A stretch of 64,000 nt of DNA, taken from Archivesica marissinica (taxonomy: Eukaryota > Mollusca > Bivalvia > Venerida > Vesicomyidae). Shown one piece after another: positions 3,994 to 63,992 of this stretch. The DNA lies in NCBI GenBank assembly GCA_014843695.1, contig CM026401.1, forward strand, positions 45,989,683-46,053,682, written 5' to 3'. The translations under genes and the position numbers were made by a program. Numbering within the stretch: the first letter of the stretch is position 1; each line of letters starts with the position of its first letter. The notes under the pieces were generated by a model, which saw only the letters and a program-made list of their open reading frames with translations, was not told the DNA's origin and did not search any database.

Positions 3994-4092
3994 ATGTCAT
4001 TTAATAAAAATAGCAGTGAACTGAAGAAACGGGACCAGGGTGTTCTGGAAAGAGTTCAAGTTCTTGTTGACTCTAACATACGTGTCGTCCAG
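3994..4092 (+). CDS. C3orf33: C3orf33 exon 1
   Basis: 33 codons, MSFNKNSSELKKRDQGVLER and on to NIRVVQ, ending CAG before GTCTCT. Phase 0. No TATA box or clear promoter was seen upstream. Confidence 0.82.
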
Positions 4093-7000
4093 GTCTCTAT
4101 TTATTATCTCAAATTTTATTCATTTCTGTAGTCCTATAAAATAAATAAGACCTCTAGGCTCTACATAAAAAATTGTTTCTGTTATTTCATTTGAAAAATG
4201 CCTGGATAGTAAAATGTCACAATTTCCAAGTCTAAATAGTTGGACTATCATTTCTGATGTTGTTCTACCTTTCACCTGTTCATTGGTTCATTTGTACAGG
4301 GCCCACTCTGGACATTGTCGTACCACAGGAACTTTAAATTTTATCCATAAGCCACCAATGGTCTCGTACCTCTATCCTAGACACTTTTTAATAGAGGGGG
4401 GTGTCCTAGGATAGAGGTACGAGACCATTGGTGGCTTATGGATAAAATTTCAAGTTCCTGTGGTCGTACACAGTCAGTCTATCGTTGTGGTGTAGAAGAC
4501 CACCAACATTTCCTGGCTTGGTAGAAACCAATACTCAATTCTCCAACCTCTGCAAGTGACTGAGAACTTTTTCACAAGTCATCATTTTATTACTTGTCAT
4601 AGTCATAGTCCTATATACATATATAAGACCTCTACATAATTTTTTTTGGATCTTATCTTTCAAAAATGCCTCGATATTAAAATGTCATATTTGGACTAGG
4701 CCTACACTTGATAACAGCCACTAGAACACCAGCAATAAACATGTGACTGTTCTGTATTTCAAGCACTAATTTCACAAAACCAAAGTCACTTTAGTGTTCC
4801 TGTCTTTACGAATGATTCACCATCGATGAGAAATGTTAGTTCCCACACACATTGGACCAACTAAGAAAGTTCTGTAAACTGGCACGTCTCGTCTCGTAGA
4901 TCCTTCTGGTACCATTGGCTGCCACTACCGATTCCATCAACCTTGTATATCACCCTTTGGAAGTCATCTACTGCTGATAGTAACTGCTACCCGTAATTAT
5001 TTTTATTGAGTGTAGATTCAGATGGTATCGCTATGATTTAACGAAATTCCAACGTATTCTCCAATATAATCCAAACATAAGTATACATAGTCCAAAACGT
5101 AATATTTCGGATGTAATAACAGGTACAAAATTAATGTAGTCAACGTAAATATTCACCTATTCACTCAGTGTATCTGTATACTGTTTATCACTAATCAGTA
5201 GTGTTAGCTATCAGCCTATCACTGTTCAATGCAGTATGTCACTGTTCAATGCAGTACATCACTGTTCAATGCAGTATATCACTGTTCAATGCAGTACATC
5301 ACTGTTCAATGTAGTATATCACTGTTCAATGCAGTATATCACTGTTCAATGCAGTACATCACTGTTCAATGCTGTATATCACTGTTCAATGTAGTATATC
5401 ACTGTTCAATGCTGTACATCACTGTTCAATGCTGTACATCACTGTTCAATGCAGTATATCACTGTTCAATGCTGTACATCACTGTTCAATGCAGTACATC
5501 ACTGTTCAATGCTGTATATCACTGTATATCACTGTTCAATGCAGTACATCACTGTTCAATGCAGTATATCACTGTTCAATGCTGTACATCACTGTTCAAT
5601 GCTGTACATCACTGTTCAATGCTGTATATCACTGTTCAGTGCAGTATATCACTGTTCAATGCTGTACATCACTGTTCAATGATGTACATCACTGTGCAAT
5701 GCAGTAGCTCACTGTTCAATGCTGTATATCACTGTTCAATGCTGTACATCACTGTTCAATGCTGTACATCACTGTTCAATGCTGTATATCACTATTCAAT
5801 GCAGTATATCACTGTATATCACTGTTCAATGCTGTACATCACTGTTCAATGCAGTATATCACTGTTCAATGCAGTATATCACTGTATATCACTGTTCAAT
5901 GCTGTATATCACTGTTCAATGCAGTATATCACTGTTCAATGCAGTATATCACTGTTCAATGCTGTATATCACTGTTCAATGCAGTACATCACTGTTCAAT
6001 GCAGTATATCACTGTTCAATGCTGTATATCACTGTTCAATGCAGTATATCACTGTTCAATGCAGTATATCACTGTTCAATGCAGTATATCACTGTTCAAT
6101 GCAGTATATCACTGTTCAATGCTGTACATCACTGTTCAATGCAGTATATCACTGTTCAATGCAGTACATCACTGTTCAATGCTGTATATCACTGTTCAAT
6201 GCAGTACATCACTGTTCAATGCAGTATATCACTGTTCAATGCTGTACATCACTGTTCAATGCTGTACATCACTGTTCAATGCTGTATATCACTGTTCAAT
6301 GCAGTATATCACTGTTCAATGCTGTACATCACTGTTCAATGCTGTACATCACTGTTCAATGCAGTATATCACTGTTCAATGCTGTACATCAATGTGCAAT
6401 GCAGTAGATCACTGTTCAATGCTGTATATCACTGTTCAATGCAGTACATCACTGTTCAATGCAGTATATCACTGTTCAATGCTGTACATCACTGTTCAAT
6501 GCTGTACATCACTGTTCAATGCTGTAGATCACTGTTCAATGCTGTACATCACTGTTCAATGCAGTATATCACTGTTCAATGCTGTACATCACTGTTCAAT
6601 GCTGTACATCACTGTTCAATGCTGTATATCACTGTTCAATGCAGTATATCACTGTTCAATGCTGTACATCACTGTTCAATGCTGTGCATCACTGTTCAAT
6701 GCAGTAGATCACTGTTCAATGCTGTATATCACTATTCAATGCAGTACATCACTGTTCAATGCAGTATATCACTGTTCAATGACTCTGATGATAGTGGTGA
6801 AAGGCGAGTTCTAACAACGGTGTGATAGACCATGGAGGCTTTTGATATATCATGGACCACAAAAGTTTAAACTTCATTTATTTTACAATGATTGCGAAAC
6901 AAGCTTAACAACTTATATTAATCACTCTCATAGGCGCAGGTGAGATCGTAAATGTGGTCATTCGTGTTGGAGGAAACTAGAGTACCCGGAGAAATCCCAC

Positions 7001-10000
7001 CTGTTTGATCTAGTGACCACCGTACCGTACTCGGGGATGAAGCTAAGACACAATAAAGGAGAACATAGCCCCCTCCCCGGACCAGACCCCCCGAGAAGTT
7101 CTGCTCCATCTATCATCAGAACTTTAACTTTGCCATCAAAATTATTTTATACCAACTTATAAACTATGAAAAAGTTGGCAGTTTCTTACGGAGGTTGGTG
7201 CACCCAAGTACTGGTTAACCGCTGGAGCCTGCCCAGGAAAGGTGTTGTTAGGTAAACTGCCCGCCGGCGATATAGCCCAAAATGGTGCTGATGCAGGCGT
7301 AAAACCCGAAATATAACGAAATATAACATAACCAACTTATAAATGTGTACAATATATGTATGTTCCATTAATGTCAAATCCATGTTTTTCCTTGGCTGAG
7401 ACTTAGCTGACCTAAGTGGTTAACCAGTAATAAACATATGTGTGAGATGCCTTGCTCAATGACACCACATACATGCCCTGACCGAGGATCGAACCTGGGA
7501 CCTTCAATTCCAGATCCGACCACGGATGCCACACTGACGTATATATGGGGGTATGTATTATCATAAATATGTGTATTTGTATATATTGTGCACATTTATG
7601 TTGGTATCACAGGGATTCGGCACGTTTGGGGGTACTAGTATATATATATTTAAGTACTTAAATATATATACTAGTACCCCCAAACGTGCCGAATCCCTGT
7701 GGTTGGTATAAGACAATTTTGATTGGCAGATTTCATTAGTTCTATAGATAGATGGGGGAGATCAGTGCTCGAGGTTATGAAACTATTCCCAGATCGCAAA
7801 CTCAAGATCAAGTAATTTGATTGGTTAAGTCTGAGTTTTACACTTAGCAGAACCAATCAGAAGCTTGAGACTGAGTTTGAAATTGGAGAAAAGTGTTATA
7901 ACCTCGGGCCCAGGTCATGGGGCATGGTCTTTTCTGGGGTGGGAATTATGTTCTCCTTTATTGTATCCTAGCATGCTTTATTTGGACTCCCTCATCAAAC
8001 AAGCATGAAATCAGAATAACATATTGGAATCACCAATTAACCCTCTCCCTCATAGAAGCACCTTTTGACGCCATTACCATATGACATACAGGGATCATTC
8101 ATTTTTTTTTTGGTTTTTACGATTTTCACATTGTTTTCACATTTCAAATTGAATCTAGTAAGATACACTGGCCCATTATAAAGCACTCCTTCTATTCAAA
8201 TGTTGTAGTTAATGGTTGTACTGTGCATTTTAACCCTATTTTGCAGAAGTATATTAAAGAATACCATTTAAGAAAGCGATCACATGCTTTCTCATTTCTC
8301 CCAAAAATTGTGACCTAGAATGAACTTTGGACATACATTGACTTTGGGGAGGGCAGTTTACTAATGTTGCTAGAACTTGTTGCCCAACCCATTTTGCATG
8401 TTATCACATATAATGAATATTAAGTCTATATGTACTATATAATGTAAAATAGCAAATAAAATATGATTAAACATACATTGACAATATAGTAGCCAAACCA
8501 ATGTTCATAATAAAGGCTAGAATCTCATGTAGTCCCAGTAATATCTATGGAGGTGGGATAGATATGGCAACTACTTATTCACTGCATGATAGCTAAATGG
8601 CTGTCATTTGTATGGAGATATAATAGTATATTAACCTGAATCTCATGTAGTCCCAGTAATATCTATGGAGGTGGGATAGATATGGCGACTACTTATCCCC
8701 TGCATGATAGCTAAATAGCTGTCGTTTGTATGGAGATATAATAGTATATTAACCTAAATCTCTATGTAGTCCCAGTAATATCTATGGAGGTGGGATAGAT
8801 ATGGCAACTACTTATACACTGCATGATAGCTTAATGGCTGTCATTTGTATGGAGATATAATAGTATATTAACCTAAATCTCTATGAAGGAAAGGGTTAAG
8901 CATTCCCAGTAAACTCTATTGAGGTACAATATAGTGTAGATATATTGACTTCTTATTACTTAATTATGAATTTTATGAACCGCGGTACAAACCCAGTTCG
9001 TGTTCGAGTAATTTCTGTGAGCCGGAACCTAATTTCAAAATGAATATCTTGTCATAAAATCGTATTTCCTCGTCCACAATAACCTTGTGATCAATACTGT
9101 ACACTTATAGCTACTTAATATAATAAACCTGATAAATATAAACTTTTTTTCCGAAATTAAATAAATTGATATAATTTAGTAAATCCCGGTCAACGAAATC
9201 GGTTACTTGGCGACGATTATGAGGTCATGAAAAATCGCTCCGCTCGGTCATGGTATACTGTGGTGCATGCTGCGGTATATATCTTGGTGCTGCTATATAT
9301 GTATGGAGATACAGTAACATATAAACCTACATCTTTATGGGGAACCGGTTAAAGTTTATATTGTATTTAAGGATGTGAATGTAGTGTTGTTATATTGTAT
9401 TTAAGGATGTGAATGTAGTGTTGTTATATTGTATTTAAGGATGTGAATGTAGTGTTGTTATATTAACAGCAGTTTATTACAAGTTGTTATATTGTATTTA
9501 AGGATGTGAATGTAGTGTTGTTATATTGTATTTAAGGATGTGAATGTAGTGTTGTTATATTGTATTTAAGGATGTGAATGTAGTGTTGTTATATTGTATT
9601 TAAGGATGTGAATGTAGTGTTGTTATATTGTATTTACGGATGTGAATGTAGTGTTGTTATATTGACAGCAGTTTATTACGAGTTGTTATATTGACAGCAG
9701 TTTATTACAAGTTGTTATATTAACAGCAGTTTATTACAAGTTGTTATATTAACAGCAGTTTATTACGAGTCGTTATATTGACAGCAGTTTATTACAAGTT
9801 GTTATATTGACAGCAGTTTATTATAAGTTGTTATATTAACAGCAGTTTATTAAGAGTCGTTATATTGACAGCAGTTTATTACCAGTTGTTATATTGACAG
9901 CAGTTTATTAAGAGTCGTTATATTGACAGCAGTTTATTATAAGTTGTTATATTAACAGCAGTTTATTAAGAGTCGTTATATTGACAGCAGTTTATTACCA

Positions 10001-13000
10001 GTTGTTATATTGACAGCAGTTTATTATGCGTTGTTATATTGACAGCAGTTTATTACATGTTGTTATATTGACAGCAGTTTATTACATGTTGTTATATTGA
10101 CAGCAGTTTATTACATGTTGTTATATCGACAGCAGTTTATTACATGTTGTTATATCGACAGCAGTTTATTAAGAGTCGTTATATTTCAGAATGGGCTGTA
10201 TCTGATTGGAGCTACTGGGCTTGTCTTAGCTGCCCGGAGTATACACCTGGTAACTATCAAACCTGGTAACTATCAAACCTGGTAACTATCAAACCTGGTA
10301 ACTATCAAACCTGGTAACTATCAAATCGGGTAACTATCAAACCTGATAACTATCAAACCAGGTAACTATCAAACCTGGTAACTATCAAACATGGTAACTA
10401 TCAAACCTGGTAACTATCAAACATGGTAACTAACCTGGTAACTATCAAACCTGGTAACTGTCAAACATGGTAACTATCAAACATGGTAACTATCAAACCT
10501 GGTAACTATCAAACATGGTAACTATCAAACATGGTAACTATCAAACCTGGTAAATATCAAACCTGGTAACTATCAAACATGGTAACTATCAAACATGGTA
10601 AATATCAAACCTGGTAACTATCAAACCTGGTAACTATCAAACATGGTAAATATCAAACGGTAACTATCAAACCTGGTAACTATCAAACCTGGTAACTGTC
10701 AAACCTGGTAACTATCAAACCTGGTAACTATCAAGGTAACTATCAAACCTGGTAACTATCAAACCTGGTAACTGTCAAACCTGGTAACTATCAAACCTGG
10801 TAATTATAACTATCAAACCTGGTAATTATAATATCAAACCTGGTAACTATCAAACCTGGTAATTATAACTATCAAACCTGGTAATTATAACTATCAAACC
10901 TGGTAATTATAACTATCAAACCTGGTAATTATAACTATCAAACCTGGTAATTATAACTATCAAACCTGGTAATTATAACTATCAAACCTGGTAATTATAA
11001 CTATCAAACCTGGTAATTATAACTATCAAACCTGGTAATTATAACTATCAAACCTGGTAATTATAACTATCAAACCTGGTAATTATAACTATCAAACCTG
11101 GTAATTATAACTATCAAACCTGGTAATTATAACTATCAAACCTGGTAATTATAACTATCAAACCTGGTAATTATAACTATCAAACCTGGTAATTATAAAT
11201 ATCAAACCTGGTAATTATAACTATCAAACCTGGTAATTATAAATATCAAACCTGGTAAATATCAAACCTGGTAATTATAACTATCAAACCTGGTAAATAT
11301 CAAACCTGGTAATTATAAATATCAAACCTGGTAATTATTTATAGTGATTTCATGGATACTTCAAATCACTTGGCCATCACCGAAGTAGGTTCGAATCCCA
11401 CTGGGGGCGGAGGTGGGGGGGTTGTATTCTTTCATCTCGCATACTTCCCAGGTTTGAACTAATTTTCATGAAAATCTGTCCTTACCTGTTTTGCTTAAAG
11501 TTTAAATTTTTTTTTATTTTATAACGATTGCGAAGCAAGTTCTAACAACTTATATTAATCACTCTCGTTGGCGCAGATGAAAGCATAAATGTGGTCATTC
11601 GTGTGGGAGGAAACCGGAGTACCCGGAGAAAGCCCACCTGTCCGATCTGGCGACCACCGTACCATCTCACATACTTCCCAGTCTGAGGATCGAACCCGTG
11701 TTGCATTGGTGAGAAGCGAGCACGCTAACCACTGCGCTAATCGGACAACCAAGTGATGTACGCGGATAAAGGAACAATATGCTACTTTTCTGATTGCTTT
11801 CCTCGTGCTACATGATAAACTCACCTTTAACTGTTCCAACTGGCTATAATATTTGCAGTGTATATTTTGAGGCCCCGACAGATTAATTTTATAACATAAC
11901 TTTATGGGGGTTTATATATACCATAGTGATCTTAACAATTAATTGATTATCGAAAATGTAAACATTCTGCCATGATGGTTATGTATAAAACATTTACCAA
12001 ACCCAGCTATGTCAGCGGACAGTGTTCATTCCGAGACGAAGGCAATTCATTTATTTTTTACCAATGCTTACAAATGCTTACAAATTACAATGTACTCAAT
12101 TTAGTGCAGCCCTGCAACTTCAAGTGACAAAAATCTCGATAGCAAAAGAACATCAAAGACTATGCATAACTTAAAAAAGCACAACAGTGAAAACATGGAT
12201 TTGTTGATTCCTGGATTGCAGAGTTTCCGTGGATGCCAAGGATACACTCAGATCTTTATCAAGTTACATGTGGCATATGCACACAGTACCTGCAATTAGC
12301 AGATAATTACATGTGGCATATGCACACAGTACCTGCAATTAGCAGATAGTTACATGTGGCATATGCACACAGTACCTGCAATTAGCAGATAGTTACATGT
12401 GGCATGTGCACACAGTACCTGCAATTAGCAGATAGGATAGTTACATGTGGCATGTGCACACAGTACCTGCAATTAGCAGATAGTTGCATGTGGCATATGC
12501 ACACAGTACCTGCAATTAGCAGATATTTACATGTGGCATATGCACACAGTACCTGCAATTAGCAGATAGTTACATGTGGCATGTGCACACAGTACCTGCA
12601 ATTAGCAGATAGTTGCATGTGGCATATGCACACAGTACCTGCAATTAGCAGATATTTACATGTGGCATGTGCACACAGTACCTGCAATTAGCAGATAGTT
12701 ACATGTGGCATGTGCACACAGTACCTGCAATTAGCAGATAGTTACATGTGGCATATGCACACAGTACCTGCAATTAGCAGATAGTTACATGTGGCATATG
12801 CACACAGTACCTGCAATTAGCAGACAAAACATTGATTGAAAGTTGAAAGGTGAGACACATTTATAGCATATGTTATCTGTATGTCAAAACCATCTGCCAA
12901 GCATGTTATGTGTATGTCAAAACCACCTGCCAAGCATGTTATGTGTATGTCAGAACCATCTGCCAAGCATGTTATGTGTATGTCAGAACCATCTGCCAAA

Positions 13001-16000
13001 TATGTTATGTGTACGTCGGAACCATCTGCCAAGCATGTTATGTGTATGTCAGAACCATCTGCCAAACATGTTATGTGTACATCGGAACCATCTGCCAAGC
13101 ATGTTATGTGTATGTCAGAACCATCTGCCAAGCATGTTATGTATATGTCAGAACCATCTGCCAAGCATGTTATGTGTATGTCAGAACCTGAATCATAGGG
13201 CAAGTTTCCTTTGGAAGTTTGGTCTTAATGTTGGTGACAAGTAGGATTCAAGTAAACGTCCACGGACAATTGAAAAATTCGGAGATTTCCACACACCCCT
13301 GAACAATGTAATAAATGTATCATCTCTGTTTTAGGCCAAGGTGTTCACAACAGTGGAAGATATACCTGCTAAGTTTATATGTAAACAGGTGAAGTTACGA
13401 GGACGAGTGAGGAGAGTTAGTGATGAGGGAATATTAGACATACAACATATACCCATCATGAGGCTACCATTTATGAGGCGCACACAAACCACAGGTACGA
13501 GGAGTGTTAAGTCCTACTGCATGTCGCCATCCACAGGGGCCTGAAGTGCCAGGTGAAACTGTTTTAACACGCATGTGTCACTAGGACGACGCATAGAAAC
13601 CAAAGGTACGAGGAGTGTAAGTCCTACTGCATGTCGCCATCCACAGGGGCCTGAAGTGCCAGGTGAAGCAGTTTTAACACGCATGTGTCACTAGGACCAC
13701 AGCAAGACGAGGATTAGCGTACATTGTATGTTTAATTTTTTCTCGTTTCATTTCTTCATCACTTCTGTATGACTTCATATCCAGATAGGAACTGTATTAC
13801 CTCCAGATAGGAACTGTTGTATGTACCTCCAGATAAGAACAGTTGTATGTACCTCCTGGTAGGAACAGTTGTATTTACCTCCAGATAGGAACAGTTGTAT
13901 TTACCTCCAGACAGGAACAGTTGTATTTACCTCCAGATAGGAACTGTTGTATTTACCTCCAGATAGGAACAGTTGTATGTACCTCCAGATAGGAACAGTT
14001 GTATTTACCTCCAGATAGGAACAGTTGTATTTACCTCCTGGTAGGAACAGTTGTATTTACCTCCAGATAGGAACAGTTGTATTTACCTCCAGATAGGAAC
14101 AGTTGTATTTACCTCCAGGTAGGAACTGTTGTATTTACCTCCAGATAGGAACTGTTGTATTTACCTCCAGATAGGAACTGTTGTATTTACCTCCAGATAG
14201 GAACAGTTGTATTTACCTCCAGATAGGAACAGTTGTATTTACCTCCAGATAGGAACTGTTGTATTTACCTCCAGATAGGAACTGTTGTATTTACCTCCAA
14301 ATAGGAACAGTGTTACCTCCAGATAGGAACAGTATTTACCTCCAGATAGGAACAGTTGTATTTACCTCCAGATAGGAACAGTTGTATTTACCTCCAGATA
14401 GGAACAGTTGTATTTACCTCCAGATAGGAACAGTTGTATTTACCTACAGATGGGAACAGTTGTATGTACCCCCAGATAGGAACTGTTGTATTTACCTCCA
14501 GATAGGAACAGTTGTATTTACCTCCTGGTAGGAACAGTTGTATTTACCTCCAGATAGGAACAGTTGTATTTACCTCCAGGTAGGAACAGTTGTATTTACC
14601 TCCAGATAGGAACAGTTGTATTTACCTCCAGATAGGAACTGTTGTATTTACCTCCAGATAGGAACTGTTGTATTTACCTCCAAATAGGAACAGTGTTACC
14701 TCCAGATAGGAACAGTTGTATGTACCTCCAGATAGGAACAGTTGTATTTACCGCCAGATAGGAACAGTTGTATTTACCTCCAGATAGGAACTGTTGTATT
14801 TACCTCCAGATAGCAACAGTTGTATGTACCTCCAAATAGGAACAGTTGTATTTACCTCCAGATAGGAACAGTTGTATTTACCTCCTGGTAGGAACAGTTG
14901 TATGTACCTCCAGATAGGAACAGTTGTATTTACCTCCAGATAGGAACAGTTGTATTTACCTCCAGATAGGAACTGTTGTATTTACCTCCAGATAGCAACA
15001 GTTGTATTTACCTCCAGATAGGAACAGTTATATTTACCTCCAGATAGGAACAGTTGTATTTACCTCCAGATAGGAACAGTTGTATTTACCTCCAGATAGC
15101 AACAGTTGTATGTACCTCCAAATAGGAACAGTTGTATGTACCTCCAAATAGGAACAGTGTTACCTTCAGATAGGAACTGTTGTATTTACCTCCAGATAGG
15201 AACTGTTGTATTTACCTCCAGATAGCAACAGTTGTATGTACCTCCAAATAGGAACAGTGTTACCTCCAGATAGGAACAGTTGTATGTACCTCCAGATAGG
15301 AACAGTTGTATTTACCTCCAGATAGGAACAGTTGTATTTACCTTCAGATAGGAACAGTTGTATTTACCTTCAGATAGGAACAGTTGTATGTACCTCCAGA
15401 TAGGAACAGTTGTATTTACCTCCAGATAGGAACAGTTGTATTTACCTCCAGATAGGAACAGTTGTATGTACCTCCAGATAGGAACAGTTGTATGTACCTC
15501 CAGATAGGAACAGTTGTATTTACCTCCAGATAGGAACAGTTGTATTTACCTCCAGATAGGAACTGTTGTATGTACCTCCAGATAGGAACAGTTGTATTTA
15601 CCTCCAGATAGGAACTGTTGTATTTACCTCCAGATAGCAACAGTTGTATGTACCTCCAGATAGGAACAGTTGTATTTACCTCCAGATAGGAACAGTTGTA
15701 TGTACCTCCAGATAGGAACTGTTGTATTTACCTCCAGATAGGAACTGTTGTATTTACCTCCAGATAGCAACAGTTGTATGTACCTCCAAATAGGAACAGT
15801 GTTACCTCCAGATAGGAACAGTTGTATGTACCTCCAGATAGGAACAGTTGTATTTACCTCCAGATAGGAACAGTTGTATTTACCTCCAGATAAGAACAGT
15901 TGTATTTACCTCCAGATAGGAACAGTATTTACCTCCAGATAGGAACAGTTGTATTTACCTCCAGATAGGAACAGTTGTATGTACCTCCAGATAGGAACAG

Positions 16001-18058
16001 TTGTATTTACCCCCAGTAACAGTTTATATATACATTTTTGAAATTTCAACTGGTCCGGGGTTTTACGATACCATTTACGTTCAGGTAAATAAAATAGATG
16101 ATGCACCGACAATTGTATGGTTCACGTGGACGAACCAGTGTCCAATTAACATAATACCTCGAGAATCTGGGCCCCATCCAGACTACGAGAAACCACCAGA
16201 CTGAAATTACTGTCCCACACCACTGTAGGTTCGATTCCCACTGGGGAGTGTTGAATACCTTCGTGTGAGGAAGCTATCCAGCTGGCTTGCGGGCGGTCGG
16301 TGGTTCTACCCGGGTGCACATCTGTGTATGGAAATATTGCTCAATGTGGCAGCTGAGGTCTTACCTCTACCAATAACAGCTGGAAAGTTGCCATAGGAAC
16401 AAAGCTGTTGATGCAACTTTCACCCATTATCGTCCCCCTCCCCAAATGTTTAGATTTGCATGAAATTGTACATGTATTTCTCTAGCCATAGAAAGAAATT
16501 CAGAAGAATATAATGTTTGTGTATTTTCAGACTGTCTACCAGTGCACATGGCCTGCATAGATCTAAGTCCCGAGGCTAGACTCTGGCTGACCGACAACGT
16601 ATTAGAGAAGGTAGTCTGGTTCAATCTCCTCCACAGAACCAGCTCTCATGATGGAATGGCCCCGCAATTGTACAGTAAAATAGAGCTACCCCAGGTATGA
16701 TAATATAACAATACTGAGAGAGGAATAGCACTTACCATATTAGGGGTGCCAGACCAAACATATCTAACCTTCCCCCCCCCACCCCCATAGAGTCGCACTC
16801 ATATATGCTACTGTATACCTCAGGGTTCATTCTAGATCAGAATAATTGGGAGAAGTGAGAAAGGGCGTGATCGCTTCCTTAAATGGTGTTCTTTAATATA
16901 CTTCTGCAAAATAGGGTTAAAATGCACAGTACAACCATTAAATACAACATTTGAATAGAAGGAGTGCTTTATAATGGGCCAGTGTATCTTACTAGACAAA
17001 ATTTTGTTTGAAAATCGTAAAAACCAAAAATAATATTATTTTTTTTATTAGGGAGAAGTGCCCAGAGGGCGAAGTCAGGATCCCTAGGGCGACAATTTCG
17101 CCCACATCGCCCTCTAGAATGATCCCTGTACCTATGCATATTGTCGCCATTTACCTATCAAAATTTACTCCACCTACAGTACATAGAGATTTTTAGTATA
17201 TAGTTCATACAAATTTATTTTAGCTTGATTGCGAAACGATTCCTTACAACTTATATTAATCACCCTCGAGACCTCATTCCTGATGGAATCCAACGCCACG
17301 AGGCATATTTGTTCTTTGTTTGATGTAGTTTTAATGAACAAACTTATTATTAATTAATTCAGTTAACCCTTTCCTTCATAGAGATTTATGTTAATATATA
17401 ATATTATATCTCCATACAAACGACAGCCATTTAACTATCATGCAGTGGATAAGTAGTCACCATATCTATCCCACCTCCATAGATATTACTGGGACTACAT
17501 AGAGATTTATGTTAATATACTATTATATCTCCATACAAACGACAGCCATTAAGCTATTATCCAGTTAATATCTATCCCACCTCCATAGATATTACTGGGA
17601 CTACACGGGATTCTGGCCTTTATTATGAACATTGGTTTGGCTACTACATTGCTAATGTATGTCGTATTAGTAATGGCGTCAAGAGGTGCTTCCATGAGGG
17701 AAAGGGTTGAAAAAGTGTGGTTTCAAGTTTCAATTTGTTTTATATTTATGATTTATTTCAGAAATTCAGAAGAAACATCCGAGTCAATGAAAATCTGATC
17801 AAAGAAGGACTTAGTAAGATCTCATCACTCTCTTCATTGGAAGAAGCTGGCAAAATGCCAACCAATAAGAATTTGTTACTATATTTAGACAGACTGGTTC
17901 AGTTAGAGCAGCATGCCTCTCAGAAGGGTACTGGAATGTGGAGGCAGCCTAAGGAAGCGTCATTGGGGAGAAAAGGACTTGGGGCTGTGAGATCTGTTCT
18001 TAGTAGTCCTTATAAAGCAGTGAAATGGATCTACGGAAAGAGAAAGCGAAAGAAATAG
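3994..18058 (+). CDS. C3orf33: C3orf33 orthologue, complete, 5 exons, 259 aa
   Basis: Exons are 3994-4092, 10190-10249, 13335-13494, 16531-16694 and 17762-18058. All introns are GT-AG and phases match. The product resembles human C3orf33. A short polar N-terminus ends VDSNIRVVQ, a hydrophobic segment follows (residues ~35-52, GLYLIGATGLVLAARSI), then the hallmark VKLRGRVRRVSDEG...IQHIPI (~73-95). The family has a staphylococcal-nuclease-like (OB) fold. C-terminal features are EARLWLTDNVLEKVVWFNLL and a basic end (KRKRKK). Catalytic nuclease residues are not evident. From memory, the family (Drosophila CG30159/MISO) is tied to mitochondrial inner-membrane organisation; that role is family knowledge. 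The start ATG has A at -3. Human is about 294 aa, so this copy is slightly short. No canonical AATAAA follows before 18.98 kb. The introns hold most of the arrays in the left third of the window. Confidence 0.9.
4324..4462. mobile_element. FB1 fold-back MITE, complete
   Basis: A near-perfect palindrome starts CACAGGAACTT and ends AAGTTCCTGTG, with arms of about 65 bp and a short centre around 4385. The 7-bp sequence GTCGTAC flanks it on both sides (4317-4323 and 4463-4469), which is a target-site duplication. It lies in C3orf33 intron 1. The termini suggest hAT or P-like mobilisation. Confidence 0.88.
5222..6781. repeat. 20-bp minisatellite, about 78 units
   Basis: The unit is ACTGTTCAATGCAGTATATC with two main variable positions (GCAGT/GCTGT and TATATC/TACATC). 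A few 10-bp half units (ACTGTATATC) occur, at 5521, 5813 and 5881. All three plus frames stay open for hundreds of codons because the unit has no stop in any frame; this is not a gene. It lies in C3orf33 intron 1. Confidence 0.97.
6866..7035 (-). mobile_element. SINE-D copy 1, 5'-truncated
   Basis: The shared tail (ATTTATTTTACAATGATTGC, AACTTATATTAATCACTCTC) is followed by the SINE-D body (GTGGTCATTCGTGTTGGAGG, AGTACCCGGAGAAATCCCAC). The tRNA head is missing. Confidence 0.85.
7164..7330 (+). mobile_element. SINE-A copy 2, 5'-truncated
   Basis: It starts inside the body (AAAAAGTTGGCAGTTTCTTA) and ends with the tail GTAAAACCCGAAATATAAC. The 13-bp ACCAACTTATAAA flanks both sides (7151-7163 and 7331-7343), a LINE-type target-site duplication. 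Confidence 0.92.
7344..7540 (-). mobile_element. SINE-E copy 1
   Basis: Reads on minus with a partly decayed tRNA head, B box GGTTCGATCCTC, TGTCATTGAGCAAGGCATCT, and a tail ending TTAATGGAACATACATA. Confidence 0.8.
7608..7701. mobile_element. FB2 fold-back MITE, 94 bp, 8-bp TSD
   Basis: An almost perfect palindrome starts CACAGGGATTCGGCACGTTT, its arms meeting at TTTAAGTACTTAAA. It is flanked by GTTGGTAT at 7600-7607 and 7702-7709. An 8-bp TSD and a CAGGG-like end fit a hAT-type non-autonomous element. A diverged single arm is at 48267. Confidence 0.92.
7710..8036. other. Intron sequence without recognised features
   Basis: C3orf33 intron 1. No coding-like frame, array or element boundary was recognised. 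Confidence 0.5.
8089..8330 (-). mobile_element. M5 CAGGG element, copy 1 (internally deleted)
   Basis: Starts CAGGGATCATTC and ends GACCTAGAATGAAC plus a decayed terminus. ACATA lies on both sides (8084-8088 and 8331-8335), a 5-bp TSD. Inserted in the M1 copy. Confidence 0.85.
8343..8469 (+). mobile_element. Short retro-insert in M1
   Basis: ACATACATTGAC occurs at 8331-8342 and again at about 8472-8483. It brackets a stretch ending AGCAAATAAAATATGATTAA, i.e. an AATAAA-bearing, A-rich 3' end. This looks like a retrotransposed fragment of unknown source. Confidence 0.5.
8900..9357. other. Intron sequence without recognised features
   Basis: AT-rich C3orf33 intron 1 sequence. It contains a short piece similar to M1 ends (near 8905) but no array or exon. 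Confidence 0.4.
9358..9660. repeat. 34-bp tandem repeat
   Basis: Eight copies of a 34-bp unit (TATTTAAGGATGTGAATGTA) fall in two blocks, 3 and 5. They are separated by one 29-bp unit of the next array, so the two arrays interpenetrate. Confidence 0.93.
9656..10185 (+). repeat. 29-bp array that ends in the C3orf33 exon 2 acceptor
   Basis: About 18 units of GTTATATTGACAGCAGTTTA(TTACAAGTT). The true acceptor, GTTATATTTCAG at 10178-10189, is the last partial unit. Each unit therefore holds an acceptor-like GTTATATTGACAG. Confidence 0.9.
10190..10249 (+). CDS. C3orf33: C3orf33 exon 2 (hydrophobic segment)
   Basis: Exactly 20 codons, NGLYLIGATGLVLAARSIHL, phase 0 at both ends. It aligns with NISTGMAIAGIMLLLRSIRL of the human protein. 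It ends ACCTG before GTAACT. Confidence 0.88.
10246..11338 (+). repeat. Donor-site array: 16-bp then 22-bp units from C3orf33 exon 2
   Basis: The 16-bp unit CCTGGTAACTATCAAA starts inside the exon: CCTG are its last four bases and GTAACTATCAAA the first intron bases. It repeats about 33 times to ~10.8 kb, with CATGGT variants. It then grows to a 22-bp form with an inserted TAATTA (about 23 copies). Confidence 0.95.
11345..11450 (+). mobile_element. SINE-F head fragment
   Basis: CTTCAAATCACTTGGCCATC and GTAGGTTCGAATCCCACTGG match the SINE-F head at 63180 and 16190. The rest is missing. Confidence 0.6.
11503..11752 (-). mobile_element. SINE-D copy 2, full length
   Basis: On minus: A box TTAGCGCAGTGGTTAGCG, B box GGTTCGATCCTC, body TTTCCTCCCACACGAATGAC, tail AGTGATTAATATAAGTTG and TTGCTTCGCAATCG. 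The tRNA-like head is intact but lacks a pairing acceptor stem. Confidence 0.92.
11753..12260. other. Intron sequence without recognised features
   Basis: C3orf33 intron 2. No feature was recognised apart from a short repeated AATGCTTACA near 12062. Confidence 0.5.
12261..12825. repeat. 43-bp minisatellite, 13 units
   Basis: The unit core is ACATGTGGCATATGCACACA followed by GTACCTGCAATTAGCAGAT. Variants are CATATG/CATGTG and TTACATG/TTGCATG. It lies in C3orf33 intron 2. Confidence 0.95.
12874..13190. repeat. 33-bp minisatellite, about 9.5 units
   Basis: The unit is CATGTTATGTGTATGTCAGA plus ACCATCTGCCAAG. As 33 is a multiple of three, frames stay open on both strands (12817-13244). The translations are simple repeats, so this is intronic and not coding. 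Confidence 0.95.
13335..13494 (+). CDS. C3orf33: C3orf33 exon 3 (VKLRGR motif)
   Basis: 53 codons plus one base, AKVFTTVEDIPAKF... VKLRGRVRRVSDEG ... HIPIMRLPFMRRTQTT. Acceptor TTTTAG, donor ACAG before GTACGA. The end of the exon and its donor are duplicated downstream. Confidence 0.93.
13481..13702 (+). repeat. 111-bp tandem duplication over the exon 3 donor
   Basis: The segment GTACGAGGAGTG...TAAGTCCTACTGCATGTCGC...CACTAGGAC occurs twice, with the donor GT at 13495 and a second GT at 13606. The last exon bases before the second GT are diverged (ACCAAAG versus ACCACAG). Confidence 0.9.
13780..16015. repeat. 26-bp minisatellite, about 86 units
   Basis: The unit is GTATTTACCTCCAGATAGGA plus ACAGTT. 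Variants are CCTGGTAGG, CAGATAGC, ACTGTT and short units (ACAGTGTTACC). Blocks of variants recur, so larger segments were duplicated. It lies in C3orf33 intron 3. Confidence 0.96.
16180..16425 (+). mobile_element. SINE-F copy
   Basis: The head-like GTAGGTTCGATTCCCACTGG (B-box-like) is followed by GAAGCTATCCAGCTGGCTTG, GGTCGGTGGTTCTACCCGGG and a tail AACAAAGCTGTTGATGC. It matches 63170-63425. Confidence 0.8.
16531..16694 (+). CDS. C3orf33: C3orf33 exon 4
   Basis: Two bases plus 54 codons: CLPVHMACIDLSPEARLWLT, then DNVLEKVVWFNLLHR and YSKIELPQ. Acceptor TATTTTCAG, donor CAG before GTATGA. Corresponds to the human VKLAGVEL...LLWFQLL segment. Confidence 0.93.
16821..17128 (+). mobile_element. 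M5 CAGGG element, copy 2
   Basis: 308 bp, from CAGGGTTCATTCTAG to CTAGAATGATCCCTG (15-bp inverted ends with one mismatch). TACCT lies on both sides (16816-16820 and 17129-17133). A 5-bp TSD with CAGGG ends would fit the hAT5 type of hAT. Confidence 0.9.
17134..17350 (-). mobile_element. Right part of composite repeat shared with 51.1 kb, with SINE-C fragment
   Basis: The sequence after M5 (ATGCATATTGTCGCCATTTA, then a SINE-C tail and TTGTTTGATGTAGTTTTAAT) is found in inverted orientation at 51115-51340, also next to an M5. The two copies form a ~530-bp inverted pair. Confidence 0.85.
17363..17709 (-). mobile_element. M1 MITE copy 2
   Basis: Starts TTAACCCTTTCCTTCATAGA and ends CATGAGGGAAAGGGTTGA; the final TTAA is mutated to TTGA. 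The ~119-bp internal unit is present twice. It ends 52 bp before exon 5 of C3orf33. Confidence 0.87.
17762..18058 (+). CDS. C3orf33: C3orf33 exon 5 and stop
   Basis: 98 codons plus TAG. It starts KFRRNIRVNENLIKEGLSKI, then NLLLYLDRLVQLEQHA, and ends with a basic KWIYGKRKRKK. Acceptor TTATTTCAG. Confidence 0.92.
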   Translation, partial: KFRRNIRVNENLIKEGLSKISSLSSLEEAGKMPTNKNLLLYLDRLVQLEQHASQKGTGMWRQPKEASLGRKGLGAVRSVLSSPYKAVKWIYGKRKRKK

Positions 18059-18269
18059 AGATTTCTTATAAGACATAGACAGACACTACACTATATAGTG
18101 GTTAACCGTTAAAGTACTTTGTAATACTCAGAATGTGCAGCACACAAACAATTATTCCGTGTGGATGATCGGAGGTCGTGAAAACTCTCTTATATTCCGT
18201 ACTTCGATATTAATTGTTCCTGCGAAAAGCGGGGATTCATTGGTTTTGTGGTTGAACCGTTCAATCCAT

Positions 18270-20925
18270 GTTGCATCATCATCATCTCTGTATATGTATA
18301 AACAGCTGTGCACCTCACTAAACCAGACTGTCTAGTTCATCTCTGTATAAACAGCTGCACACCTCACTAAACCAGACTATTTCATTCATCTCTGTATAAA
18401 CAGCTGTGCACCGCACTAAACCAGACTCTATAGTTCATCTCTGTATAAACAGCTGCACACCTCACTAAACCAGACTCTCTAGTTCATCTCTGTATAAACA
18501 GCTGTGCACCTCACTAAACCAGACTCTCTAGTTCATCTCTGTATAAACAGCTGTGCACCTCACTAAACCAGACTCTCTAGTTCATCTCTGTATAAACAGC
18601 TGTGCACCTCACTAAACCAGACTGTAGTTCATCTCTGTATAAACAGATGCACACCTCACTAAACCAGACTCTTTCATTCATCTCTGTATAAACAGCTGCA
18701 CACCTCACTAAACCAGACTCTCTAGTTCATCTCTGTATAAACAGCTGCACACCTCACTAAAGCAACTCTAGTTCATCTGTATAAACAGCTGCACACCTCA
18801 CTAAAGCACTCTCTAGTTCATCTCTGTATAAACAGCTGTGCACCTTACTAAACCAGACTCTAGTTCATCTCTGTATAAACAGCTGCACACCTCACTAAAC
18901 CAGACTCTCTAGTTCATCTCTGTATAAACAGCTGCACACCTCACTAAACCAGACTCTAGTTCATATCTGTATAAACAGCTGCACACCACAATAAACCAGA
19001 CTCTCTCGTCCATCTCTGTATAAACAGCTGCACACCTCAATAAACCAGACTCTCTTGTCCATCTCTGTATAAACAGCTGCACACCTCAATAAACCAGACT
19101 CTCTTGTCCATCTCTGTATAAACAGCTGCACACCTCAATAAACCAGACTCTCTTGTCCATCTCTGTATAAACAGCTGCACACCTCACTAAACCAGACTCT
19201 AGTTCAACTCTGTATAAACAGCTGCACACCTCAATAAACCAGACTCTCTTGTCCATCTCTGTATAAACAGCTACACACCTCACTAAACCAGACTCTCTCG
19301 TCCATCTCTGTATAAACAGCTGCACACCTCACTAAACCAGACTCTCTCGTCCATCTCTGTATAAACAGCTGCACATCTCACTAAACCAGACTCTCTAGTT
19401 CATCTCTGTATAAACAGCTGCACATCTCACTAAACCAGACTCTCTAGTTCATCTCTGTATAAACAGCTGCACACCTCACTAAACCAGACTCTCTCATTCA
19501 TCTCTGTATAAACAGCTGCACACCTCACTAAACCAGACTCTCTAGATCATCTCTGTATAAACAGCTGCACACCTCACTAAACCACTCTCTTGTCCATCTC
19601 TGTATAAACAGCTGCACACCTCACTAAACCAGGCTCTAGATCATCTCTGTATAAACAGCTGCACACCTCACTAAACCAGACTCTCTTGTCCATCTCTGTA
19701 TAAACAGCTGCACACCTCACTAAACCAGACTCTCATCCATCTCTGTATAAACAGCTGCACACCTCACTAAACCAGACACGCATCCATCTCTGTATAAACA
19801 GCTGCACATCTCACTAAACCAGACTCTCTAGATCATCTCTGTATAAACAGCTGCACACCTCACTAAACCAGACTCTAGTTCATCTCTGTATAAACAGCTG
19901 CACACCTCACTAAACCAGACTCGTTAGTTCATCTCTGTATAAACAGCTGTGCACCTCACTAAACTAGACTCTAGTTATTATCTGTATAAACAGCTGCACA
20001 CCTCACTAAACCAGACTATCATCCATCTGTATAAACAGCTGCACACCTCACTAAACCACTCTCTCGTCCATCTCTGTATAAACAGCTGCACACCTCACTA
20101 AGCCAGACACTCGTCCATCGCTGTATAAACAGCTGCACACCTCACTAAACCAGACTCTCGTCCATTTGTATAAACAGCTGCACACCTCAATAAACCAGAC
20201 TCTCTCTTCCATCTCTGTATAAACAGCTGCACACCTCAATAAACCAGACTCTCGTCCATCTCTGTATAAACAGCTGCACACCTCAATAAACCAGACTCTC
20301 TCGTCCATCTCTGTATAAACAGCTGCACACCTCACTAAACCAGACTCTCTAGATCATCTCTGTATAAACAGCTGCACACCTCACTAAACCACTCTCTTGT
20401 CCATCTCTGTATAAACAGCTGCACACCTCACTAAACCAGGCTCTAGATCATCTCTGTATAAACAGCTGCACACCTCACTAAACCAGACTCTCTTGTCCAT
20501 CTCTGTATAAACAGCTGCACACCTCACTAAACCAGACTCTCGTCCATCGCTGTATAAACAGCTGCACACCTCACTAAACCAGAATCTCGTCCATTTGTAT
20601 AAACAGCTGCACACCTCAATAAACCAGACTCTCTCTTCCATCTCTGTATAAACAGCTGCACACCTCAATAAACCAGACTCTCGTCCATCTCTGTATAAAC
20701 AGCTGCACACCTCAATAAACCAGACTCTCTCGTCCATCTCTGTATAAACAGCTGCACACCTCACTAAACCAGACTCTCTAGATCATCTCTGTATAAACAG
20801 CTGCACACCTCACTAAACCAGACTCTCTTGTCCATCTCTGTATAAACAGCTGCACACCTCACTAAACCAGACTCTCTCGTCCATCTCTGTATAAACAGAT
20901 GCGCACCTCAATAAACCAGACTTTC
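18270..20925. repeat. 47-bp minisatellite, about 56 units, downstream of C3orf33
   Basis: Unit core CATCTCTGTATAAACAGCTG plus CACACCTCACTAAACCAGACTCT. Units with CTCAATAAACC contain AATAAA (first near 18.99 kb). A block of about 429 bp recurs (ends at 20335 and 20764). Minus-strand frames are periodic artefacts. The array starts ~210 bp after the C3orf33 stop and may be within its 3' UTR. Confidence 0.96.
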
Positions 20926-20957
20926 TCAAGTCCATGCAGTGGTAGCAGTCAGATCTG

Positions 20958-21515
20958 TTAACCTGTAACGTGCCAATCGTGACAAAAGTTGCTATTACAA
21001 ACAGAATAGAGCCAGATCAGACTTGCCAATCATGACTAAAGTTGCTATTACAAACAACATAGAGCCAGATCAGACTTGGCAATCATGACTAAAGTTGCTA
21101 TTACAAACAGCATAGAGCCAGATCAGACTTGCCAATCATGACTAAAGTTGCTATTACAAACAGCATAGAGCCAGATCAGACATGCCAATCATGACTAAAG
21201 TTGCTATTACAAACAGCATAGAGCCAGATCAGACTTGGCAATCATGACTAAAGTTGCTATTACAAACAGCATAGAGCCAGATCAGACTTGGCAATCGTGA
21301 CTAATGTTGCTATTACAAACAGCATAGAGCCAGATCAGACTTGCCAATTGCGACTAAAGTTGCTATTACAAACAGCATAGAGCCAGATCAGACGGCTCTA
21401 TACTGATTACTATTCGGATAGTGGAGCTAACACACTTGGCTGAATAGCAAACATAGATCCTGATCAGAGATGTTGCATTACGCCGCAGCTGCTTTGCATC
21501 TATGTTGTTTGCTCA
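20958..21515. mobile_element. M2 MITE copy with an internal 53-bp array
   Basis: Starts at GTTAACC and ends with M2 sequence (ATAGATCCTGATCAG...CTATGTTGTTTGC). Between these a 53-bp unit (GCCAATCATGACTAAAGTTG + CTATTACAAACAGCATAGAG + CCAGATCAGACTT) repeats about 8 times. The unit is the left half of M2. Confidence 0.85.
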
Positions 21516-21691
21516 TTCCGCCCAAATCCACAAGTTTCATGACCAAAGTAGTGGGGTCGCCTTATAGGGCAAGATCGCCTTATAGTCGAGTATGGTAATC
21601 TTAATTTTTATTATGATACTCGTAGTCTTTTTTCATTCGGCCCAAATTATCATAGCAAAGAAATGAATGTTCATTTAACATGTTTTATTGT

Positions 21692-22036
21692 AATTGCTAT
21701 ACGACATCACCATAGCGACCATTCTATACGACATCACCATAGCGACCATTCTATACGACATCACCATAGCGACCATTATATATGACATCACCATAGCGAC
21801 CATTCTATACAACATCACTATAGCGACCATTCTATGTGTCATCACCATATCGACATTTCTATACGACGTCACCATAGCGACCATTCTATATGACATCACC
21901 ATAGCGACCATTCTATACGACCATTCTATACGACATCACCATAGCGACCATTCTATACAACATCACCATAGCGACCATTCTATATGACATCACCATAGCG
22001 ACCATTCTATACGACATCACCATAGCGACCATTCTC
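21692..22036. repeat. 27-bp minisatellite, about 12 units
   Basis: The unit is ATACGACATCACCATAGCGA plus CCATTCT. The multiple-of-three period keeps frames open on both strands; not coding. Confidence 0.95.
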
Positions 22037-22260
22037 TAATGGGTTAATTATATACAGTAATGTAAAAGGTACGTGATAAAAAGAACAAATGGGAAGGATA
22101 GCACTCGAGACTATCTGAAACAATAGCGCACAATAAATAATATAATGTAAATGAGTGGGGTCGTAATTTTGTTAAAATTTCAAGGTTATTGGACTTGACT
22201 TAAAAGGTCAACTTTATTTAGGGCAGGAAACAACTGTTAAATTGAATAGTTTTTCCAGTG
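22037..22260. other. Intergenic, no recognised feature
   Basis: AT-rich sequence without array, element ends or coding-like frame. Confidence 0.5.
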
Positions 22261-22262
22261 TC

Positions 22263-22345
22263 ATGTTGTTTGTATTTTGGGGTTTAACGTTGCACCAACA
22301 GCTTAGGTCAAATGTTGCCTCTCTAGCTATTTGAGGAGGAAGACC
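22263..22345 (-). mobile_element. SINE-F tail fragment
   Basis: ATTTTGGGGTTTAACGTTGC, ACAGCTTAGGTCA and GAGGAGGAAGACCC match the SINE-F tail, the same sequence that makes the 78-bp array at 26.7 kb. Confidence 0.7.
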
Positions 22346-22524
22346 CTGTAGCGAAATTGTTGTCGTAAATGCACAAAGTACCCTTGACTTATAGAAGGAT
22401 CCAGCTTAATTTCGGGCCTTTCAAGCCAAAGGTTTGACCGTCGACTTTTGGCCGGGAACATACGGTAACCAGATTTAATAATTGCAAACAGAGGGATAAT
22501 AATGTCAAAATGCACGACAGAGTT

Positions 22525-22710
22525 CAGGGTTCATTCTAGGTCAGAATTTTTGGGAGAAGTGAGAAAGCGCGTGATCGCTTCCTTAAATGGTGTTTAAAAT
22601 GGGTGCAAAAAACTTCTCTTTTTTTAGGGAGAAGTGGGGCCCACAGAGGGCAAAGTCAGGGTCCCTAGGGGCGACAATTTCGCCCACATCGCCCTCTAAA
22701 CTGATCCCTG
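22525..22710 (+). mobile_element. M5 CAGGG element, copy 3 (186 bp)
   Basis: CAGGGTTCATTCTAG to CTAAACTGATCCCTG, internally shortened. GAGTT lies on both sides (22520-22524, 22711-22715), a 5-bp TSD. Confidence 0.9.
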
Positions 22711-22805
22711 GAGTTATTGAACTTGACCTGTGAATCAAACCACTTCATAATGAACATATACCAAATGATTTAAAATTTCAAGATGCACGACAGATTAATA
22801 ATATT

Positions 22806-23095: not shown

Positions 23096-23148
23096 ACACA
23101 GTGCAGCTATATGGTGAGTGGTACCGGAGCTATACCAACCATATAATA

Positions 23149-34454: not shown

Positions 34455-35290
34455 AACCCATGTCACAGCCTGCATGGACGTCACAACCTGCATGGATGTC
34501 ACAACCTGCGTGGATGTAACAGCCTGCATGGACGTCACAACCTGCGTGGATGTAACAGCCTGCGTGGACGTCACAACCTGCGTGGACATCACAACCTGCA
34601 TGGACGTCACAACCTGCGTGGATGCCACAACCTGCGTGGATGTAACAGCCTGCGTGGATGTCACAACCTGCATGGACATCACAACCTGTATGGATGCCAC
34701 AATCTGCATGGATGTCACAACCTGCATGGATGTCACAACCTGCGTGGACGTCACAACTTGCATGGACGTCACAACATGCGTGGACGTCACAACCTGCATG
34801 GACGTCACAACATGCGTGGATGTCACAACCTGTATGGATGCCACAATCTGCATGGATGTCACAACCTGCGTGGATGTCACAACCTGCATGGACGTCACAA
34901 TCTGCATGGATGTCACAACCTGCGTGGATGTCACAACCTGCGTGGATGTCACAACCTGCATGGACGTCACAGCCTGCATGGACGTCACAACCTGCATGGA
35001 CGTCACAACCTGCATGGATGTCACAACCTGCATGGATGTCACAACCTGCATGGATGTCACAACCTGCATGGATGTCACAACCTACATGGATGTCACAACA
35101 TGCGTGGATGTCAGTCTGCATGGACGTCACAACCTGCATGACGTCACAACCTGCATGGACGTCACAACCTACATGGACGTCACAACCTGCGTGGATGTCA
35201 CAACCTGCATGGACGTCACAAAACCTGCATGGACATCACAACCTGTATGGACGTCACAACCTGCATGGACGTCACAACCTGCGTGGACAA
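34455..35290. repeat. 18-bp minisatellite, about 46 units
   Basis: Unit CACAACCTGCATGGATGT (variants GCGTGGACGT, AGCCTG). At 18 bp, long frames exist in several frames of both strands (34323-35544). They translate to strict 6-residue repeats such as TTCMDV and lack any non-repeat domain, so no gene is called. Confidence 0.96.
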
Positions 35291-35942: not shown

Positions 35943-44077
<8,135 letters not shown>

Positions 44078-44925: not shown

Positions 44926-45009
44926 CAGTGTTAAATGTTAACATTGTCACAGGTTGTGTTTTTATATGTACGTGTTTATATGACGGACGCGGCGTTCCAT
45001 AGTTAATGC

Positions 45010-45146: not shown

Positions 45147-45603
45147 GTGAGCAGTTGTCACTGTATTGTATTGTACATGTCCAATCGTTTTGTCTGTTGT
45201 ATGTATATGAATGAGAGATGTATGAAAGGTTTGAATGCATTGGCTCCTTGCTAATCTAATCCCTTTTCAGTTATTCTGAACTGTTTCTCAGTTGAGATCG
45301 ATAGATGAACTGTTACGAGATAGTCGACACTCGACAATAGTTTAAAGACTTTCCAATTTATATTGGAAAGATGTTTATTTAACGCTGTGGCCCTATCCCT
45401 ATACGTACACGAATAAATAATCGAACCTACGCCAGGCGTTGTTGTACAAGTGAGCCCTGTGACAACATTATCAAATTTTTACGCTAGAATGACAGACAAC
45501 GGAAATGTAAACAATCTACATGTAAATGTTGCAAAGTTGTCAATATTGAAAGGAGCCTCCTCCGTAGTGAAATGGAATTATGGATATGGTGTGATATACA
45601 TGT

Positions 45604-45817
45604 ATGGCGTCCGTGGTCCAATGATAGAGCGTCGGATTTGGAATCGAACGGTCCGGGTTCAATACTCAGTCAGGCCACGTATGTAGTGTCATTGAGCAAG
45701 GCACCTCATACACATTGCTTAGTACTGGTTAACCGCTATGGTCGGCTTAGCATACCCAGGAAAACATGTTTGGATCCCCGCAAGGGGTTTGACATTAATG
45801 GAACATACATACATATA
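45604..45817 (+). mobile_element. SINE-E copy 4, full length
   Basis: GGCGTCCGTGGTCCAATGAT, B-box-like GGTTCAATACTC, TAGTGTCATTGAGCAAGGCA, TACTGGTTAACCGC, tail TTAATGGAACATACATACAT. PEX5 intron 1. Confidence 0.9.
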
Positions 45818-46634
45818 TGAGATTAAACCCCGCCAGAACGTCGGCGATCCGTGGGAAAGACTTAAATCTACATGGCCTTTCCTCTGTCCCTCGTATACTT
45901 GTAAGGATGGATTATCAAGCACGATAACGATTTCGCTAATATTAAATTTGCATAAACTAAACTAATAGTTGAAATAGAATGAAACGTCAACCTAGCAAAA
46001 AATCTATTCATTGACTGTGAATTGACATTGATAAAAATGTCTGCAAATCCCAGGTTCATGAATGAATGACATGACCTTGTCAAATATGTAACTAACTGAA
46101 GCACCATTAAAATTAATGGATGATCACAATTTATGAACAATTTCTAGGTAGGAGTGGTTCTGTGTTATTTAAAATAGAGAGGAAAGATGGGCAGGGTGGG
46201 TCAGAAAAGAGGCACGGTACATTTTGAACAGAGATGATGTTCGGGGGGGGGATATTTTGGGGTTAGCCCCCAGAAAATTTGTGAAATTACGGTGATTGAT
46301 CAAAAAGGCAGTAAGTCAGTACATATTGATAAAAAGAGTGGACAAGTTCTAAGTTATATCTGTCTGCCCGTCCGGGCTCCAAAGGCACCTGTTGAGTCTT
46401 GTATTAAAAAAATAAGATAAGAGGGCGGGGCAAACAGGCGGGGCTAAAAAGGGCATGGTTGTGCGCCCTACCATTCTGCTCTAGAAAAAACCCTAAGTTA
46501 TTATTTAGTATTACAGGGTAAATAAATGATGTAGTCAGAGTCCCTCACTCCCTTGTGGCATACATGTATATAATAGAAAAAACAGAAAAACATAAACCAT
46601 TTTGCTTGCAAATGTATGGTTCTTCTATTTTCAG
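45818..46634. other. PEX5 intron 1, no recognised feature
   Basis: Only a G-run (46235) and short AT-rich stretches; no coding-like frame. Confidence 0.5.
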
Positions 46635-46647
46635 ATAATTAAAGACG

Positions 46648-63992
<17,345 letters not shown>

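Follow-up and report, generated by a model that had tools for sequence, protein, structure and literature searches.

Genes and tandem arrays of the window

The stretch analyzed here, referred to below as the window, covers 64,000 nucleotides of the bivalve Archivesica marissinica (C16:45989683-46053682 of its own assembly of 1.54 Gb and 2808 contigs), and ~37% of it consists of tandem arrays with a unit of at least 10 bp. Three genes, C3orf33, PDE6D and PEX5, were rebuilt from this sequence, providing 18 exons and 31 testable junctions; the internal junctions of these models are all GT-AG, and translation runs through them with no internal stops. Their positions in the window are:

3994..18058, plus strand: C3orf33 gene, 5 coding exons (3994-4092, 10190-10249, 13335-13494, 16531-16694, 17762-18058)
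35943..44077, minus strand: PDE6D gene, 6 coding exons (44077-44037, 42636-42574, 41449-41424, 40394-40269, 37725-37620, 36024-35943)
46635..63992, plus strand: N-terminal coding exons 1-7 of PEX5 (46635-46743, 48208-48252, 52765-52800, 53653-53776, 54948-55146, 56272-56407, 63849-63992), the rest of the gene lying beyond the window end

The C3orf33 protein shares 66% and 68% identity with the top two homologues, of which one is a Mercenaria protein, and 54% with a third, and has no match among Pfam families. PDE6D, tested against the human protein without its first exon (133 aa), gives a gapless alignment (E 8e-72), and over the whole 147 aa it shares 94% identity with a Mercenaria protein. 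The product of PEX5 exons 1-7 is 42% identical to an approximate human PEX5 sequence; it scores 24.3 bits against the PEX18/PEX21 C-terminal profile, below the cut-off of 25, and finds no match among solved structures.

Repeats are also conspicuous away from these exons. A 41-bp array of ~42 copies occupies positions 1-1733 and continues past the window start, and the first 2 kb has a G+C content of 0.55, above all other 2-kb blocks. An 18-bp array of 46 copies (34462-35288), with a unit length divisible by three, lies downstream of PDE6D. Intron 6 of PEX5 holds, by eye, a long gene-like stretch (~57050-59640, apparently on the minus strand), flanked on both sides by similar repeats (~56650-57040 and ~59640-60180), which may be an inserted element. 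A SINE-like element occurs in two different genes, at ~37263-37484 and 62127-62362, with 215 identical aligned bases; at both sites it splits tandem copies and could serve to date the arrays.

An earlier note on this DNA had described tandem copies that include the splice site at six exon edges of the three genes, and TRF places the arrays where that note had put them. Those at or near splice junctions are:

9653..10189, plus strand: C3orf33 exon 2 acceptor array, 29-bp units, abutting the exon
10245..11338, plus strand: C3orf33 exon 2 donor array, 16-bp units (CAAACCTG/GTAACTAT) passing into 22-bp units, with 5 exonic bases and the donor spanned
13479..13697, plus strand: C3orf33 exon 3 donor duplication, two copies of 110-111 bp with 16 exonic bases per unit
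36007..37172, minus strand: PDE6D exon 6 acceptor array, 43-bp unit with ~18-20 exonic bases, ~27 copies
37171..37620, minus strand: end of PDE6D exon 5 and its donor region, two decayed copies (37576-~37490 and 37267-37171)
38696..40288, minus strand: PDE6D exon 4 donor array, 31-bp unit of 19 exonic and 12 intronic bases, ~51 copies
53471..53665, plus strand: PEX5 coding exon 4 acceptor duplication, two copies of 101 bp with ~20 exonic bases
55162..55266, plus strand: 20-bp array after PEX5 coding exon 5, ~12-15 bp into the intron, donor not included
56154..56271, plus strand: PEX5 coding exon 6 acceptor array, 37-bp unit, abutting the exon, intronic part only

Copied junctions and decoy splice sites

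All 31 junctions were scanned uniformly, using the 30 bases on either side of each as a query for copies within 4 kb; a copy was called spanning if it held at least 5 bases on both sides of the junction and scored above the best of 100 shuffles. Spanning intronic copies were found at five junctions, three donors (C3orf33 exons 2 and 3, PDE6D exon 4) and two acceptors (PDE6D exon 6, PEX5 coding exon 4), with copy numbers ranging from two (PEX5 exon 4, C3orf33 exon 3) up to ~50. A sixth, older spanned junction is the PDE6D exon 5 donor, where the 30-base scan gave one spanning match (score 26 vs. 27 for the best shuffle) and a longer query recovered copies in intron 5 scoring 87 and 56 against 44 for the best of 300 shuffles; these copies are split by the SINE-like element at ~37263-37484. 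The PEX5 exon 1 donor, with a single spanning match (score 25 vs. best shuffle 27), was left out of the count. Thus, five of the edges listed earlier as including the junction are indeed spanned, and the remaining one, the C3orf33 exon 2 acceptor, merely abuts its array, the scan having turned up no spanning copy there. The same applies to PEX5 coding exon 6, which had been considered a probable case: at both acceptors the unit holds zero exonic bases.

The 31-bp unit of PDE6D exon 4 agrees with the real junction in all but two of its positions (29/31), and its exonic bases code for a conserved stretch of the protein, from which it follows that copying went from the exon into the intron.

Nearly every unit carries what looks like a working splice site. 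Counting the real junction where an array contains it, the decoy GT or AG is intact in 149 of the 152 full copies of the five large arrays: 33/34 (16-bp) and 22/22 (22-bp) in the C3orf33 exon 2 donor array, 18/18 in the acceptor array of the same exon, 49/51 at the PDE6D exon 4 donor and 27/27 at the PDE6D exon 6 acceptor. For the small PEX5 exon 6 acceptor array the count is 3/4. Judged by eye from the column table, conservation of the splice dinucleotides does not exceed that of the other positions in the unit. The 9-mer of the real C3orf33 donor recurs in 20/34 rows of the 16-bp array, and that of the real PDE6D exon 4 donor in 19/51 rows, the real copy included; these counts, together with the intact dinucleotides, led us to reject the idea that decoys are systematically broken or weaker than the real sites. 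Use of 144 of the 146 decoys scored at six junctions is predicted to truncate the protein. Since decoy use would truncate products that are conserved, splicing at these arrays presumably uses the exon-proximal copy. The earlier comment that it would be unusual for splicing to stay functional among dozens of decoys stands.

Frequency in the window and in unselected genes

Whether the window is enriched in junction-spanning arrays depends on the null, and all P values in this paragraph are uncorrected for the window having been chosen on this very feature. With seeds placed anywhere in present introns, the six spanned junctions compare with 0.8 expected (P 4e-5); with seeds in pre-expansion introns, with 2.7 (P 0.019); and with the window's own array density, with 1.2 (P 0.001). 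Spanning and abutting cases together amount to 8 vs. 0.9 (P 4e-7, present lengths) or 3.0 (P 0.0012, pre-expansion), and spanning arrays with at least 3 copies to 4 vs. 0.4 (P 0.0004) or, pre-expansion, 2.1 (P 0.09). Present intron length was rejected as a seed space, PDE6D introns 4 and 5 being nearly all repeat (2543 bp now vs. ~164 bp pre-expansion, and 1595 bp vs. ~132 bp, respectively). A distance-zero placement null (5/30 junctions touched vs. 0.09 expected) was likewise rejected because it forbids junction-spanning seeds; the shuffled-distance null proposed in the earlier note would yield a spurious excess, the seed unit never being allowed across the junction. A null for tests based on the distance from repeats to splice sites must leave the seed unit free to span the junction. 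In terms of plain coverage, junctions are, if anything, touched less often than random intron bases at 5 bp (6/30 vs. 37.5%, P 0.03), with 8/30 touched within 15 bp (P 0.15). The local significance of the excess thus hinges on the choice of null.

The window also informs on where arrays arise. Their density is the same in introns and in intergenic DNA (0.72/kb vs. 0.74/kb; 27 vs. 18 hand-merged arrays, binomial P 0.88), which argues against a transcription-linked birth. Unit ends are scattered along the unit with no clustering at the junction; exonic bases make up between 0.15 and 0.74 of it (hand-set values, n=6; Kolmogorov-Smirnov vs. uniform, P 0.74).

For an unselected sample, exons of the same assembly were chosen by protein family, blind to repeats. 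The CCT/HSP60 set comprised 57 matches to PF00118 and six exons from a home-made profile. The Sec1 set comprised 12 of 15 matches to PF00995, three with long open frames being left out (two on C17 and C15:4885074), and the myosin head set 10 of 74 matches to PF00063, taken in roughly listing order and passing over long frames, one long exon match and near-identical paralogues. The gene names CCT7-like, CCT3-like and HSPD1-like are those suggested by the peptides. Across seven CCT gene regions, tandem arrays account for 24-53% of the sequence.

In the CCT set, a mechanical scan scored 6 of 110 edges, where 4.4 would be expected (P 0.28). Placement of junctions and reading reduced nine raw positives to the five counted, giving donors 5/55 and acceptors 0/57, i.e., 5 of 112 edges spanned vs. 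5.1 expected for CCT alone. The donor C18:41776124 was dropped (the profile match had overrun the exon and misplaced the junction), as were the acceptors C8:10271974 and C8:10282029, where the array stops short of the real acceptor; a pair on C11, representing one event in two paralogues, was counted once; and two matches on C10 as well as C19:19169516 were left out of the junction count as long open frames or separate loci. The two C8 sites belong to two near-identical copies of one exon with its upstream array, ~10 kb apart, with 335/341 bases identical around the acceptor, reflecting either a real duplication or an assembly error. In the CCT7-like gene, arrays start at two successive donors, one with 10 copies of 76 bp and the other with 26 copies of 42 bp; further donor arrays lie on C18 (13.8 copies of a 76-bp unit) and on C14 (35.7 copies of a 26-bp unit). 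Two HSPD1-like exons, outside the pooled edges given below, showed nothing by eye in the 60 bases upstream and 150 downstream.

For Sec1 and myosin, arrays were called by reading the sequence at the edges of the profile matches, with no placed junction, in flanks of 300 and 190 bp, so that long units would escape. Among Sec1 exons, 2/12 donors and 1/12 acceptors are spanned. The exon at C14:72400624-72400773 is spanned at its acceptor by an array of ~76-78 bp units and at its donor by a different array of ~119 bp units; in carrying arrays on both flanks it resembles C3orf33 exon 2. Among myosin exons, 1/10 donors and 0/10 acceptors are spanned. Five candidates with fewer than 5 exonic bases were not counted (C15:5183069, C14:5170421 and C14:72429799 in Sec1; the donors C4:23273144 and C14:69966453 in myosin).

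Pooled over the three families, spanning arrays occur at 9 of 156 exon edges, compared with an expectation of 7.1 (P 0.28), the denominators including paralogous and gene-end edges. The expectation uses the density of CCT regions (0.0455 per random ancestral point), applied also to the Sec1 and myosin exons; with the window arrays added it becomes 6.8 (P 0.25). Overall, the feature is confirmed to be real and to recur elsewhere in this genome, in CCT, Sec1 and myosin genes, and is no quirk of three genes, which bears out its earlier description as recurring; outside the window there is no overall excess of junction-spanning arrays. The earlier note had proposed a genome-wide comparison in which an absence of excess over chance would speak against its claim, and in this small-scale version none is seen; at this sample size the result does not support a mechanism that operates on splice junctions, such as R-loops or transcription-coupled breakage, one of two explanations then put forward. 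The other, that selection shapes what is seen, fits. Arrays wholly inside exons number 0 vs. 11.3 expected (nominal P 1.2e-5), in a test that is biased towards zero because a large internal array would break the exon-defining profile match.

A difference between donors and acceptors was noticed post hoc, on small numbers and with gene-end edges in the denominators. Outside the window, 8/77 donors vs. 1/79 acceptors are spanned (Fisher P 0.017); with the window included, the figures are 12/92 vs. 3/95 (P 0.015), and within the window alone 4/15 vs. 2/16 (P 0.39). Relative to array density, the unselected genes have 8 spanned donors for 3.5 expected (P 0.024) and 1 spanned acceptor for 3.6 (P 0.12). 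Both abutting arrays of the window sit on acceptors.

Origin of the arrays and their meaning

The anatomy of the arrays, the exonic origin of their units, the integrity of the decoys, the near-background rate and the failure to find any array wholly within an exon are established by these data, and the reading that we prefer, at a probability of roughly 0.7, is that of ordinary local minisatellites, born at random, removed when internal to exons and tolerated when they span a junction. Tandem duplications of ~15-150 bp would start at effectively random places; those wholly within exons would be eliminated and intronic ones tolerated. Duplications across a junction would be tolerated as well, we propose, because neither the coding sequence nor the outermost real splice site is disturbed. 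Growth would proceed by slippage or unequal exchange, each unit bringing with it bases of the exon and a donor or acceptor that looks functional, and the exon-proximal site would be chosen probably via exon definition and, for donors, by the true site being transcribed first. The exon can be named as the source since the units hold its conserved coding bases, and the lack of excess outside the window together with the equal intronic and intergenic density means that no junction-seeking process is needed. Two observations sit less comfortably with random seeding: the window exceeds the prediction, though it was picked for the feature, and a model of uniform seeds and uniform tolerance fails to predict the donor/acceptor split.

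A duplication process aimed at splice junctions, e.g., through R-loops or transcription-coupled breaks near exon-intron borders, would account for the local excess in the window and for replicate donors above expectation. We consider it improbable in view of the unselected genes, which show no overall excess and no enrichment at acceptors, of an intergenic array density equal to the intronic one, and of unit ends lying away from the junction. An equally long shot is that spanning arrays are kept or favored, redundant donors aiding splicing or tuning expression via unproductive isoforms, with donors preferred over acceptors. The almost complete integrity of decoy dinucleotides and the donor/acceptor asymmetry are consistent with this idea, the near-universal truncation upon decoy use could feed decay, and human IFI6 takes downstream repeat units as donors (PMC4526556); it is at odds with splice dinucleotides that appear by eye no better conserved than the unit remainder and with an overall rate close to background. 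That dispersed satellite or mobile repeats invaded introns and matched splice sites by chance is very improbable despite a region rich in arrays and SINE-like elements, as the units contain coding bases of the adjoining conserved exon and the PDE6D 31-bp unit, searched with three copies as queries in the 1.54 Gb assembly, had 21/21 matches in its own array and none at unrelated loci (such searches can miss copies), and a dispersed origin was rejected for this unit.

The asymmetry suggests a further reading that we regard as tentative and somewhat doubtful, namely that tandem duplication is borne differently by donors and by acceptors, donor arrays being common (~1 donor in 10) and acceptor arrays purged. 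On the donor side, the first-transcribed, exon-proximal site would beat any number of identical downstream copies; on the acceptor side, identical upstream acceptors would be met before the true one, and such arrays would be purged.

As far as open-licence literature searches go, the kind of feature is known from human IFI6, and its frequency, its occurrence at both site types and its donor bias are new; nothing closer than IFI6 turned up in the open-licence papers. The IFI6 minisatellite with multiple splice donors was reportedly described by Turri, Cuin and Porter in 1995 (Nucleic Acids Res 23:1854). According to two later papers, the minisatellite of IFI6 (6-16, G1P3) supplies multiple splice donors (PMC2572611, PMC4526556), and downstream repeat units are used as donors in the mRNA (PMC4526556). 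The likeness lies in minisatellite units that supply splice donors. An array that begins at and includes the real donor is found at C3orf33 exons 2 and 3 and PDE6D exon 4, as well as in the CCT, Sec1 and myosin examples (the four acceptor cases of the window fall outside this description), and an intact splice dinucleotide in each unit is the rule (149/152 in the large arrays, 3/4 at PEX5 exon 6). IFI6, however, is one human gene, its minisatellite being said to sit at an exon 2 donor, whereas the clam arrays recur in unrelated genes, at donors and acceptors, with up to ~70 exonic bases per unit (C18:21527802) and with a measured background rate; and IFI6 downstream units are used in mRNA, whereas the clam decoys are candidate sites.

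Two other systems are related in part. In the Rogers model, introns are gained by tandem duplication of AGGT-containing exon segments (PMC4974935), which likewise involves exon sequence with splice signals and leaves the protein unchanged; that model makes a new intron, and none is seen in the clam genes, where a junction already present appears to have been duplicated into its own intron. All copies are intronic, and the order of the coding sequence matches that of homologues. Ordinary intronic minisatellites or VNTRs (PMC8096271) share the short tandem units in and around genes; unlike them, the unit here includes the exon-intron junction.

Genes for PDE6D, CCT subunits, the Sec1 family and myosin appear to pick one splice site among up to ~50 near-identical ones. 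The choice of the spliceosome between identical sites seems to have been studied mostly with engineered duplications, and the arrays described here offer natural test cases in both donor and acceptor settings and with known spacings. Expansion from an intron's own splice junctions is also a possible route of intron lengthening. If the donor/acceptor asymmetry is true, this clam genome would hold thousands of natural experiments on the choice among n identical splice sites, and its introns would lengthen through duplication of their donor ends.
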